Assembly: GCF_029872055.1 (NCBI RefSeq) | Contig: NZ_JARXNQ010000002.1 | Coordinates: 62,001 to 126,000, forward strand | Source: Sulfurimonas sp. C5 | GTDB taxonomy: Bacteria > Campylobacterota > Campylobacteria > Campylobacterales > Sulfurimonadaceae | Reading direction: 5' to 3' | Length of the DNA stretch: 64,000 nucleotides | Part shown: in pieces, positions 17,707 to 22,280 of the stretch | Layout of the letters: every line of letters begins with the position of its first letter | How positions within the stretch are numbered: position 1 is the stretch's first letter | Notes under the pieces: model-generated | Seen by the model: the letters and a program-made list of their open reading frames with translations, nothing else | What the model was told of the DNA's origin: nothing | The model's database searches: none | Made by a program: the position numbers and the translations under genes

Positions 17707-18045
17707 ATGCTTATAGAAATATTTACAGATTACATCCGCAATAAAAAAGATCTTCGTGAGTATGTTGAGGTAAGAAAAACTATCAACGAACGTGGAGAAT
17801 TTAATGACGCATCATTGATTAAGGTGCAAGAAAATCTTGAACGTTTAAAAAAGGAAAATCCTGAAATTTATGCAAAAATGTATGAAGTTTTAGAGGAAGT
17901 TTTTAGAAGAGATCAGGGGAATAATATTGAATATTCACTTGACTTTGCCAGAGAAATTTTAAAAATGTTTCAAAAGCAGTCTCTTGAAAGTATTTATGAA
18001 GAGTATGCAGCAGTACTTGAACATAAGTATCAAACGGTGAATTAG
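17707..18045 (+). CDS. Conserved hypothetical helical protein
   Basis: 112 residues from ATG 17707, which has a strong ribosome binding site (TAAGGAG). A further upstream in-frame start at 17656 has none. The protein is largely helical and charged (FTDYIRNKKDLREYVEVRKT), with no membrane segment or signal peptide. I do not recognise the family. It converges with the diguanylate cyclase gene, the two overlapping by 4 nt at their stops. It is separated from the mutarotase gene by 63 nt carrying a possible -10 (TATACT). Confidence 0.6.
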   Translation: MLIEIFTDYIRNKKDLREYVEVRKTINERGEFNDASLIKVQENLERLKKENPEIYAKMYEVLEEVFRRDQGNNIEYSLDFAREILKMFQKQSLESIYEEYAAVLEHKYQTVN

Positions 18046-19301
18046 TTTATTATAACTGTATTTCTTCCAGAGGATTTGGCATTATATAATGCCATATCAG
18101 CCAACTTAAAAGTTTGTTGCCAAGCATTGGATGGATTATGAAAAGCTGCTCCAAAACTACATGTTACTTTGTCTACAACGGCAAATTTATGTAGTTCTAT
18201 CATTTGTCTTAAATGTTCTAAAACTTTTTTTAGCATTGATTTATCATCTATATTTAACAACAATATAAATTCTTCTCCACCCCATCGTATCAAGATATCT
18301 TCTTGTCTTGAAAAATGACTTATGACTTTTACTATATCTTTTAAAATAATGTCTCCAATATCATGTCCGTAAGTGTCATTTATATCTTTAAAATGATCTA
18401 TATCAATCATTGTAAAGACCAAACTCTTATTTTTAAATATCAGTTTTTGAATATTTTGTTCAAAATATTCTCTATTATATGCCTGTGTTAGTTTATCGTG
18501 TATTGTTTTATCTTCAAGAGCTAGTTGCTCTATCATTGTATCGCTGATATCGGTAAAGTTGATTATGTATCTATTATAAACTTTTTCAACAGCGACATTA
18601 AAGGAACGAGTTATGCCATCTTGTAGTGATTGAATCATGACAATGTGCTCATTTTTTGGAAGTTCAAGTAAGGATTCTATCCAGTTTTGATCTTCTTTGA
18701 TTTTTTCAGCATGAAAATAATGCTCTTTAACTATGAAGGTATGACAAATGCAGTTATAACGTTCTTGAAATTCATCTAATGTCGTACATTGAAAATATTC
18801 TAATACTACTTTATTCATAAAAAGTACTTGCTTTTCGTTTAGAAGAAGCACCATATTTGGCTGTTGATCCAAAATACTTTCTATGAGGTTTTTTTGTGTT
18901 TCAAGTTCTATTTGTGTTTTTTTTAACTTATCAATATTTTTAAGTACAGCAATATAAAACGCTATTTGGTTGTCCTCTCTGCGTATTGCTGTTACGGTTA
19001 AATCTACCCAAACTAACTTACCAAATTTATTAATATATCTTTTTTCAATGCAAAACGAATCAATAGTACCGTTTTGTATCTCTTGTATATGTTTAAGGCT
19101 ATTATCTAAGTCATCTGAATATGTGATGTCTTGAAATGTTTTATGCTCTAGTTCCTCTTGTTTATACCCTAGCAGACTGCATAACTGTTGATTAACTATG
19201 ATAAACTGACCAGAGCTGTCAACTATTGCCATTCCCAGATTTATATTGTTGAAAATAACTTTATAGACAACATTATTAATTATTTCTTTATTAGGCGTCA
19301 T
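18042..19301 (-). CDS. PAS-PAS-GGDEF diguanylate cyclase
   Basis: 419 residues, cytoplasmic. A PAS domain (about 12-125, AIVDSSGQFIIVNQQLCSLLGY) and a second PAS-like region (about 135-250) precede a GGDEF domain (about 258-419). The active site is GGEEF (341-345), with the metal-binding FTMIDIDHFKDINDTYGHD segment and an intact inhibitory I-site RQED (332-335) five residues before it. It should make c-di-GMP under feedback control. The ribosome binding site is AGAAGAGA. It lies 17 nt downstream of the CetA-like chemoreceptor gene on the same strand, so it may be in the same operon. Confidence 0.88.
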   Translation of the reverse strand: MTPNKEIINNVVYKVIFNNINLGMAIVDSSGQFIIVNQQLCSLLGYKQEELEHKTFQDITYSDDLDNSLKHIQEIQNGTIDSFCIEKRYINKFGKLVWVDLTVTAIRREDNQIAFYIAVLKNIDKLKKTQIELETQKNLIESILDQQPNMVLLLNEKQVLFMNKVVLEYFQCTTLDEFQERYNCICHTFIVKEHYFHAEKIKEDQNWIESLLELPKNEHIVMIQSLQDGITRSFNVAVEKVYNRYIINFTDISDTMIEQLALEDKTIHDKLTQAYNREYFEQNIQKLIFKNKSLVFTMIDIDHFKDINDTYGHDIGDIILKDIVKVISHFSRQEDILIRWGGEEFILLLNIDDKSMLKKVLEHLRQMIELHKFAVVDKVTCSFGAAFHNPSNAWQQTFKLADMALYNAKSSGRNTVIIN

Positions 19302-19318
19302 TATCTCTTCTGCTTTTG

Positions 19319-20434
19319 TTATTTTGTCAGCTTTTCAAGAGTTTCTATAATTTCATCCATTTGATTGCTGACAGTACTTACTTCATTAGAAATAGCATTT
19401 ACTTTGTCTGCATTTTTATTCAATGTATCTGAACTTTCAGAGATAGACTGTATCAATACATTTGTTGTAGCAGTAGTTTCTGCTAAACTTTTTTGTGTGC
19501 GCTCTGCCAGTTTTCTTACTTCATCGGCAACGACGGCAAAACCACGTCCGTGTTCACCCGCACGAGCTGCTTCTATAGCAGCGTTGAGTGCAAGTAAGTT
19601 CGTCTGATCAGCAATATCACCTATGGTTTCTAAAATCACTTTAGTTTCGTTGGCATTTTCCACAAGAGACTGAAGGCTGCTTACCATCTCATTCTCTTTT
19701 TCTGAAACATTGTGAATTTGAACTACAATATCATGTATCATATTTTTAAAGTCCACTATGGTTGTATTTGTAATATTTTCAATAGTGTTGTTTAAATTGT
19801 TCGCCGACTCTACAATTTGTTGGTTAGACTCTTCATTTCGCTGGCGCATAGTACTGAGAGCTTCTCCCAACGAATTTACATTGTTTAAGAGCTCTGCCAT
19901 TTTTGCCTCAACAGTTACTTCACTACGGGCTTCAAAATTTCCTTGTGAGAATTGCTTTAATGTATTTATGGCATTGTCAAGATTATTCTCTGAAGCATCT
20001 AGCATGTTATTCATACTATTTCTCAATACATGTACATAAGGTGTGTTCGTATCTGCATCGATACGGCATGAATAATGACCTTTTGCCACTTTGTCTGCTA
20101 ATAAAACCATCTCACCGGCAACTCTTGTATCTTCAAGAACTGCTTTTTGATAGCTTGTTACAATCTTATTAAAATTTTGTTCTGCCACATCTGTTGTAGT
20201 TTCATCAATATCAACTTGATTTCTTTTAAATTCCATTACGTCTATAAACTCTAATCTTCTCTTATCTAGCTTAGAGTTAGAAACAGAAGTGCCTTTTCCA
20301 TATAAAACAATAACCAACATAAAAGTCATGACTGTTAAAATTGCTTGAATTATATTCGATTCAAGTACAAATAAAGATGCTAACGTTAGCATAAACATTA
20401 CAGTGATTAGTATAATTTTTTGCATATTTTTCAT
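19319..20434 (-). CDS. Methyl-accepting transducer, CetA-like energy-taxis protein
   Basis: 371 residues. Two closely spaced hydrophobic helices (about 6-46) form a membrane hairpin with no periplasmic sensor. A HAMP-like region and a signalling helical hairpin follow, with the conserved tip [20 protein letters not shown]. The preceding gene, 9 nt upstream, encodes a lone Aer-type PAS protein. This split arrangement is that of Campylobacter jejuni CetA (transducer) and CetB (FAD-binding PAS), which mediate energy taxis. The order here is PAS then transducer. The name rests on architecture and position, since the tip is identical in most chemoreceptors. Confidence 0.75.
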
Positions 20435-20443
20435 TTTATATCC

Positions 20444-20827
20444 TTAACGTAATGTTTTATAAAGCGCTTCGGCAGCTTCTATTTCTTCTTTTGCAGGTTT
20501 TCTTCTGCAAGACATATAGCGAACTTGTTTTGTTTCAGGATCTTTCATTGGATACACAGTCGCAAAAACCCAGTAATACCCACCGTCTTTAGTTTTGTTC
20601 TTAACGTAACCCGTCCATACTTTACCTTGTTTTACAGTGCCCCACAAATCTTTAAACGCAGCCTTGGGCATATCCGGATGTCTAACTATATTATGGTTTT
20701 TACCTACCAGTTCTTCGATCGAATACCCTGCAATCTTACAAAAATCATCATTGGCGAACAGGATGATTCCCTTTTCATCTGTTTGTGAAACTAAAAAGTC
20801 ATCACTTTTTAAAATATATTCACCCAA
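20444..20827 (-). CDS. Aer-type PAS protein, CetB-like
   Basis: 127 residues, one PAS domain only. Its sequence is of the Aer redox-sensor type: TDEKGIILFANDDFCKIAGY, then KNHNIVRHPDMPKAAFKDLW, then GGYYWVFATVYP. In Aer this fold binds FAD and reports respiratory redox state. As a separate polypeptide it fits CetB of Campylobacter. The start is TTG at 20827, set by AAGGAG 5 nt upstream. It is the first gene of the PAS / chemoreceptor / diguanylate cyclase cluster and is divergent from the LOV regulator. Confidence 0.78.
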   Translation of the reverse strand: MGEYILKSDDFLVSQTDEKGIILFANDDFCKIAGYSIEELVGKNHNIVRHPDMPKAAFKDLWGTVKQGKVWTGYVKNKTKDGGYYWVFATVYPMKDPETKQVRYMSCRRKPAKEEIEAAEALYKTLR

Positions 20828-21074
20828 AGATACTCCTTTTCCCCTTATTTGTATACTTTAGATTAACAACTTTTTTGTCATACAGCCTTGATTTAGATCA
20901 AGAGTAAAGATGATTTAGTGTTGTATAATCAATATAGTAAAGATTAATATAATGTTAAAAAGTATAGAAAATTTATTGAAAAAAAAGTATAATTATTCAA
21001 TTTAGTAATAATTAACATGCTAAAAATACCTGTTTTATGGGGAAATTAAAAAAATATTTTTTTAAAAATACAAG

Positions 21075-21095
21075 TGGACACTTTATGGACACTTT
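21075..21095. promoter_or_regulatory. Two direct repeats with 11-bp period, candidate operator
   Basis: TGGACACTTT occurs at 21075-21084 and again at 21086-21095, one helical turn apart. The second copy ends 4 nt before the -10 hexamer. This is the spacing used by OmpR-type winged-helix regulators that overlap the -35 region. The gene it serves encodes such a regulator. Confidence 0.55.
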
Positions 21096-21099
21096 GTGA

Positions 21100-21105
21100 T
21101 AGAAT
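21100..21105 (+). promoter_or_regulatory. -10 element of the LOV regulator gene
   Basis: TAGAAT lies 6 nt before the ATG at 21112. Transcription would start at or near the ATG, so the mRNA is probably leaderless. The direct repeat takes the place of the -35 box. Confidence 0.45.
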
Positions 21106-21111
21106 AGTGAT

Positions 21112-21831
21112 ATGAAAGAAAAAAACTATATAAAGCTCAGTCCAAACTGTTATTGGAATCCTCATGAAGAGGTTGTGTATGTTGACGGCATTTTAACTCC
21201 TTTATCTGCCAATAAGACAAGCTGCTTAAAACTGCTGATCTACTATAGGGGTAAACCACTTAAAGATATTGAAATATTTGATTTCGTTTTCAAAGGTGAG
21301 TCAAAAGAGTTTAATAATAAAACTGTTAGAACTCTAATGAGTAATTTGAGAACTAAACTTCCTTGTCTTAATATCATAAATCACTACGGAGGTTTTTATT
21401 CTCTTGAGAAATATAGAGAGCCAACACCGGATTTTCAAGAGTATCTTCTAGATTTTATGGACCAAGCAAAGAACGGTATTGTTATTACCGACCCCAACCA
21501 AAAAGACAATCCTATTATTTATGTAAATGAAGCATTTACAAAGATGTTCGGTTACGCTTCGGAAGAAGTACTTGGAAAAAACTGTAGATTTCTACAAGGT
21601 GAAGACACTGAACAGTTTGCAAGATCGGAGATAAGAGAAGCTATTAAAAATGAAAAAGAAGTATTGGCAGTTATACGAAACTATCATAAAGGTGGTCGAC
21701 TTATTTATAATGAGGTACAAATCTCACCTATTTTTGACAAACATACTTTACAGCTAAAGTACTTTTTAGGTATTCAAAAAGACGTCACGGATCTTTATAC
21801 ACTGATGTTACAGTTAAAAGAAAAAAAATAA
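21112..21831 (+). CDS. Winged-helix transcription regulator with LOV photosensor domain
   Basis: 239 residues. The N-terminal half (about 5-100) has the OmpR/PhoB winged-helix pattern (LTPLSANKTSCLKLLIYYRG, NKTVRTLMSNLRTKL, YGGFYSLE). The C-terminal half is a LOV domain with photoactive Cys158 in GKNCRFLQ (155-162). R159 and Q162, the flavin-contact Asn190 and Asn200, and Gln222 (GIQKDV) also match the spacing of plant and algal LOV domains. Blue light should form a flavin-cysteinyl adduct and alter DNA binding. It has no receiver domain, so the LOV domain replaces phosphorylation. It is divergent from the CetB/CetA-like genes. Confidence 0.85.
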   Translation: MKEKNYIKLSPNCYWNPHEEVVYVDGILTPLSANKTSCLKLLIYYRGKPLKDIEIFDFVFKGESKEFNNKTVRTLMSNLRTKLPCLNIINHYGGFYSLEKYREPTPDFQEYLLDFMDQAKNGIVITDPNQKDNPIIYVNEAFTKMFGYASEEVLGKNCRFLQGEDTEQFARSEIREAIKNEKEVLAVIRNYHKGGRLIYNEVQISPIFDKHTLQLKYFLGIQKDVTDLYTLMLQLKEKK

Positions 21832-21861
21832 AGTTTTAATTTTGGAAAATTTTTAAAGAAG

Positions 21862-21946
21862 TGGTGCGGACGAAAGGACTTGAACCTTCACACCTTGCGG
21901 CACCAGATCCTAAGTCTGGCGTGTCTACCAATTTCACCACGTCCGC
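21862..21946 (-). tRNA. tRNA-Leu (anticodon UAG)
   Basis: 85-nt class II tRNA with CCA encoded. The acceptor stem CGTCCGC/GCGGACG pairs fully, and the anticodon loop CTTAGGA gives UAG. It is the last gene of a five-tRNA minus-strand cluster. Confidence 0.93.
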
Positions 21947-21988
21947 GTGGAATATGTGTTTAATGTCTCTTCAGACAACTCTAATAAG

Positions 21989-22065
<77 letters not shown>

Positions 22066-22075
22066 ATACATTTTG

Positions 22076-22152
22076 TGGTGCGCCTGATAGGATTCGAACC
22101 TATAACCGTCGGATCCGAAGTCCGATACTCTATCCAGTTGAGCCACAGACGC
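22076..22152 (-). tRNA. tRNA-Arg (anticodon UCG)
   Basis: 77 nt with encoded CCA. The anticodon loop CTTCGGA gives UCG, and the acceptor stem GCGTCTG/CAGGCGC has one G-U pair. Confidence 0.93.
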
Positions 22153-22202
22153 AGGCAACAACCAGTGTTTGGCTTATAAGTTACAATATATTATTAATCA
22201 AA

Positions 22203-22280
22203 TGGGGTGGAATATGGGATTCGAACCCACGGCCCCCAGTGCCACAAACTAGTGCTCTAACCAACTGAGCTAATCCCACC
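22203..22280 (-). tRNA. tRNA-His (anticodon GUG)
   Basis: 78 nt including the extra 5' G(-1), which faces C73, the His identity element. Encoded CCA and anticodon loop TTGTGGC are present. Confidence 0.93.

Follow-up and report, generated by a model that had tools for sequence, protein, structure and literature searches.

The 64,000-nt window analysed here, a stretch of the genome of Sulfurimonas sp. C5, encodes a protein in which an OmpR/PhoB-type winged helix is placed ahead of a LOV domain (Table 1), and this protein is probably a blue-light-responsive one-component regulator that binds a pair of GACACTT repeats and most likely represses its own promoter. In relatives, the best reading is that the regulator probably also controls genes for chemotaxis and c-di-GMP signalling. 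The reading is favoured by the identity of the LOV domain, the OmpR-type winged helix, the near-unique repeats ahead of the regulator gene or its operon, the signalling genes that surround it, three clusters with phytochrome genes and an association with photolyase; against it stand the lack of photolyase, phytochrome and BLUF in the window's genome, the loss of the Cys in three family members and of the Gln in twelve, and the lack of a convincing second target in the window's genome. The open reading frame represents a real gene, since it has full-length relatives with a conserved N-terminus. The LOV transcription regulators would thereby be extended by a further kind of DNA-binding module, with the OmpR-type winged helix ahead of the sensor, and the compact candidate operator is directly testable. 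The operator, the gene neighbourhood and a sister clade in which Gln is replaced by Tyr or His are additions to an earlier note on this DNA.

Table 1. Positions in the window of the regulator gene, its domains and key codons, and the upstream elements.
Feature	Position	Strand	Basis
Candidate operator GACACTT-TATG-GACACTT, two direct repeats with an 11-bp period	21077..21094	+	Near-unique in the genome, conserved in relatives
-10-like TAGAAT	21100..21105	+	Position conserved in relatives
wHTH-LOV regulator gene, 239 aa, ATG start	21112..21831	+	ORF and full-length relatives
OmpR/PhoB-type winged helix, residues 1-102	21112..21417	+	Matches of family profile, Pfam and AlphaFold model
Predicted linker helix (A'-alpha position), residues 108-117, at the wHTH/LOV junction	21433..21462	+	AlphaFold, low confidence there
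LOV domain, residues 113-227	21448..21792	+	PDB, NCBIfam and Foldseek matches
Cys158 codon, adduct-forming Cys in the motif GKNCRFLQG	21583..21585	+	Sequence, family alignment
Asn190 codon, predicted flavin contact	21679..21681	+	Family alignment
Asn200 codon, predicted flavin contact; Glu, Asp or Thr in some sister-clade members	21709..21711	+	Family alignment
Gln222 codon, active-site Gln; Tyr or His in all sister-clade members	21775..21777	+	Family alignment
Predicted C-terminal helix (J-alpha position), residues 226-237	21787..21822	+	AlphaFold model

On its sequence matches, the sensor half of the regulator is a LOV domain and not a member of another PAS family, as the earlier note had proposed. 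The top matches in the PDB were to the LOV domain of YtvA (4gcz, 4.8e-30; 2pr5, 2.4e-29), followed by other LOV domains including that of EL222 (8a5r, 1.2e-25), and the top NCBIfam model for residues 114-237 was the YtvA blue-light photoreceptor (NF052652, 2.1e-45); the score of 155.2 bits falls short of the full-length cut-off of that family (>250 bits) because only the LOV part matches. A Foldseek search with the whole AlphaFold model returned, among the matches listed, LOV structures throughout. The photochemical set is complete in the window protein, and its six residues stand at the spacing that the earlier note had given, namely C158, R159 (+1), Q162 (+4), N190 (+32), N200 (+42) and Q222 (+64). 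The window's genome contains 19 PAS-type matches to the regulator, and among the best eight of these the LOV Cys signature is found in the regulator only. From the sequence we infer that the regulator would bind flavin and undergo a photocycle.

The N-terminal half is, according to sequence profiles and a structural model, an OmpR/PhoB-type winged helix. The window protein alone scored 22.8 bits against the Pfam model Trans_reg_C, which is under the 26.2-bit cut-off; the same model was matched by 20 of 23 family members at E<=0.01 (best, 2.9e-8), and a profile search with the family found the OmpR-type regulators CssR and DrrD. The AlphaFold model (mean pLDDT 90.8), in which residues 1-102 form a four-stranded N-terminal sheet, three helices and a wing hairpin, resembles the DNA-binding domains of SaeR, YycF, PhoP and PhoB. 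No receiver domain is present within the 239 residues, so that both the type of winged helix and the missing receiver agree with what had been read from the sequence beforehand. When 397 genomes of the phylum were searched with a profile of the winged helix, the family was retrieved at E<1e-35 and, after a gap, other proteins followed from 3.9e-24; all eight of the nearest non-family proteins examined comprise a receiver and then a C-terminal winged helix. The simplest history may be that the receiver was lost and a C-terminal LOV domain was gained.

Several known systems resemble the regulator in part. In EL222 from Erythrobacter litoralis, as proposed here, a LOV domain directly controls a DNA-binding domain within one soluble protein, and the LOV parts of the two proteins align; however, EL222 carries a LuxR-type HTH after LOV, whereas the window protein carries an OmpR-type winged helix before LOV, and the different DNA-binding fold and the opposite order place the regulator outside the EL222 type. 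The reverse order had been correctly pointed out in the earlier note, but the description as unusual given there calls for some restriction: the arrangement recurs as a family over several families of Campylobacterales. YtvA from Bacillus subtilis (LOV-STAS), which contains the closest LOV domain of solved structure, has an N-terminal LOV domain and a STAS output, in contrast to the C-terminal LOV domain and the DNA-binding output of the regulator. CssR, DrrD, SaeR, PhoP and PhoB are similar in the winged-helix fold and in the candidate site of direct repeats one turn apart. OmpR/PhoB response regulators, however, have an N-terminal receiver and a phosphate signal, whereas the window protein has a C-terminal sensor and no receiver, which sets it apart from the OmpR-type response regulators. 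In the HTH-PAS one-component regulator FG214, the DNA-binding domain also precedes a PAS-fold sensor, but FG214 binds haem (PMC13060918), whereas the window protein has a flavin-type LOV sensor with flavin as the predicted ligand. The algal aureochromes (bZIP-LOV) also carry the DNA-binding domain N-terminal to LOV (PMC8184817), but they are eukaryotic and use bZIP, whereas the window protein is bacterial and uses a winged helix. A survey of part of the literature, the catalogue of LOV proteins by Glantz et al. (2016) excepted, yielded no fusion of an OmpR-type winged helix with LOV; an equally partial survey yielded no LOV protein in Sulfurimonas or Epsilonproteobacteria. Within this coverage, the regulator is a new variant among LOV one-component regulators.

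The architecture was sought in genomes of Campylobacterota and in plasmids. Of 135 genomes from the genus, 19 contain a full-length relative, as do four genomes from elsewhere in the order that belong to other genera or families. A scan of contigs with the single protein as the query gave no match, an alignment of the winged helix as the query gave 20 named loci, and the search of plasmids gave LOV-only matches and no full-length relative. The named loci belong to Sulfurimonas, Sulfuricurvum, Sulfurospirillum/Sulfurospirillaceae, an Arcobacter MAG and a Helicobacteraceae MAG; the family is scattered across several families of Campylobacterales and is not a one-off. A tree of 30 full-length Campylobacterales members, from which the trait columns were excluded, comprises two well-supported clades of 18 and 12 members. 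Gln222 is present in all 18 members of the former (the Gln-clade), including the window protein, and is replaced by Tyr (9/12) or His (3/12) in the latter (the Tyr/His-clade), several members of which also have Glu, Asp or Thr in place of N200. Conservation of the adduct-forming Cys in close relatives, to which the earlier note had attached weight, is borne out: the residue is kept in 27 of the 30 members, including both 79%-identical relatives. The exceptions are L051 and L054, a pair sister to the three-member group that contains the window protein, in which Pro takes its place, and L055, which has Ile. The Tyr/His-clade resembles the natural Gln-deficient LOV receptors (PMC9098866) in lacking the active-site Gln while mostly keeping the Cys; in that survey of about 350 receptors, by contrast, large aromatic residues were largely absent at the Gln position, and His at this position ended light signalling in engineered receptors (PMC9098866).

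The candidate operator, GACACTT-N4-GACACTT, is located 17 bp upstream of the regulator gene and ends 5-6 bp upstream of the TAGAAT element; the ATG lies only 6 bp past TAGAAT, and thus the mRNA may be leaderless. OmpR-type domains bind direct repeats of 11-bp period. In the 2.06-Mb genome of the window, the sole match with <=1 mismatch is the regulator's own promoter, and the reversed-pattern control gave no match in this genome at the same threshold. A site near the ATG is found in 17 of the 18 Gln-clade genes (it is absent upstream of L054) and in L063. Most of these sites have 0-2 mismatches of 14, and dinucleotide shuffles rarely or never match them; the weakest, that of L119, has four mismatches and was equalled by 36 of 1000 shuffles. 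L038 and L039 carry an extra unit, GAAACTT, closest to the -10 element. The other 11 Tyr/His-clade genes have no site directly upstream; in nine of their genomes, a similar and often weaker site precedes the first gene of the regulator's operon, a gene which encodes a CheB-CheR-kinase or a GGDEF-EAL protein. The best scores of these operon-front sites are 0-6 mismatches of 21, and a score of <=6 was obtained in 15 of 3000 random stretches, some of which are real sites because the sampled loci include such sites; the weakest, in G083 (six mismatches), is suggestive only. Hand alignment of 29 sites gave GacAcTTtnnaGAcACTTTTttgnTAnaAT, in which the column counts are descriptive and carry no test. 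An initial view that the Tyr/His-clade lacks the operator was dropped, since the site sits before the operons, and what looked like a third repeat there is more plausibly the -10 element, whose offset is the same as elsewhere.

It is likely that the regulator binds this candidate operator. That the repeats are instead the site of another regulator or a mere promoter element, with the wHTH-LOV protein binding elsewhere, is quite improbable: the motif was first spotted by eye in the window and only afterwards tested in relatives, which leaves some room for such a reading, but the site is near-unique genome-wide, occurs in both clades in front of the gene or operon of the regulator irrespective of which gene leads, and is almost without counterparts in the reversed-pattern controls. 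In the mechanism proposed here, a LOV input would take the place of the phosphorylation input, as suggested by a winged helix that lacks a receiver and has a C-terminal LOV domain. Blue light would produce a flavin-Cys158 adduct, and N190, N200 and Q222 would relay the change to the LOV sheet and the flanking helices, altering the pairing of two winged helices on the two GACACTT repeats, which are spaced by one helical turn. With a transcription start at the ATG, the site would lie at about -36 to -18, over the -35 region and the spacer, and because of this overlap the regulator most likely represses its own promoter. Activation through the repeats, in the manner of PhoB-type activators near -35, is possible but the less probable outcome; activation from direct repeats near -35 is common among OmpR-type regulators, and no good -35 hexamer at standard spacing was found at the window promoter, but the repeats end nearer to the -10 element than PhoB sites typically do. 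In addition, repression in light is the effect of EL222 operators set between the -35 and -10 elements (PMC9614035); this speaks against activation and, by analogy, inclines us slightly towards light strengthening rather than releasing the binding of the regulator to DNA. In many relatives, the site-bearing promoter of the proposed self-repressor would also drive CheB-CheR-kinase and/or c-di-GMP genes.

The possibility of a large GACACTT regulon was considered for the window's genome and rejected, as the counts were near those of the reversed-pattern control. Besides the regulator's own promoter, the matches examined in this genome fall within coding frames, except for a poor one ahead of a conserved NosL-like gene, and a convincing second target did not emerge. 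The NosL-like gene may be a weak candidate, its upstream repeat being poor. A AACACTTTTT-N3-ATA-AAAT-like stretch is present before the orthologous NosL-like genes of the window's genome and a relative, at L201 (G000) and L205 (G031). Possible further targets in relatives are the regulator-adjacent MCP gene of G190 and, in G084, a GGDEF gene, each preceded by an exact match to the extended pattern, and two PAS-PAS genes in G063. Control of the divergent PAS-MCP genes of the window by the candidate operator is doubtful, because they are ~250 bp away and the intergenic region contains no half-site in their orientation.

The regulator gene of the window appears to stand alone; downstream is a tRNA cluster on the opposite strand. 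A 135-aa ORF at 21861-22268 was discarded as spurious, as it overlies tRNA genes of the other strand. The window shares with the two nearest relatives its divergent neighbours, which encode a small PAS protein and an MCP; in the window, the small PAS protein (127 aa), the MCP (371 aa) and a PAS-GGDEF protein are encoded in a row at 18042-20827(-). The PAS-MCP pair is presumably similar to CetB/CetA, the split energy-taxis receptor known from Campylobacter. A perfect TTGAT-N4-ATCAA palindrome (FNR/CRP-type box) occurs upstream of these divergent genes at 20888-20901, and the pattern recurs at the equivalent location in both nearest relatives (L069:8082 and L070:8074). Several Gln-clade genomes have, after the regulator, genes for a CheB-CheR-kinase fusion of 1067 aa and for a REC-PAS-GGDEF protein, and in most Tyr/His-clade members it lies downstream of GGDEF-EAL and/or CheB-CheR genes. 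This arrangement suggests that blue-light input is tied to chemotaxis-modification and c-di-GMP genes.

Other light-related genes accompany the family. Phytochrome-GGDEF genes are located inside the regulator cluster in G063 and G190, and in G140 a PHY match lies ~2.6 kb from the regulator; across the genus there are four PHY matches in 3 of the 135 genomes, two of them within regulator clusters. The phytochrome-PAS-GGDEF proteins that adjoin the regulator are encoded at L090:2504-5032(-) and L081:349-2871(+). A photolyase-type domain was found in 15 of 19 carriers of the regulator versus 23 of 116 non-carriers (p 9e-7, uncorrected for relatedness) and, among the more complete genomes only, in 14 of 18 versus 17 of 61 (p 2e-4, likewise uncorrected). 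The description of the lineage as dark-living in the earlier note may therefore fail for some carriers within the genus, and light is suggested to matter to some sulfur-oxidising Campylobacterota. On the other hand, the window's genome gave no match to photolyase, phytochrome or BLUF models. This absence would accord with a LOV domain whose main role is to sense redox state or oxygen through its flavin, reduction of the flavin changing DNA binding. Such a sensor would suit a chemolithotroph in the dark, some relatives lack the Cys or the Gln, and Cys-free LOV proteins can signal via the flavin semiquinone (PMC4682037). Redox sensing as the main role is nevertheless unlikely, given that nearly all members keep the Cys, that the window protein has the whole photochemical set, and that the three phytochrome clusters and the photolyase association favour light.

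Alongside blue-light sensing by the window protein, it is tempting to speculate that the family forms a natural series in which the sensing chemistry of the wHTH-LOV protein changed several times over the same DNA site, although this view is tentative. The series would run from the canonical LOV domain of the window's group, through Tyr or His for Gln with altered Asn contacts in the sister clade, to Cys-free forms with Pro or Ile. If this is true, the LOV domain would drift in its light response, or move in the direction of redox sensing, with an unchanged DNA output. The Tyr/His-clade provides natural test cases for the residues that LOV signalling needs. In L053 (G083), an in-frame TAG is present near the 3′ end of the reading frame, and the C-terminal helix is therefore short by a few residues.
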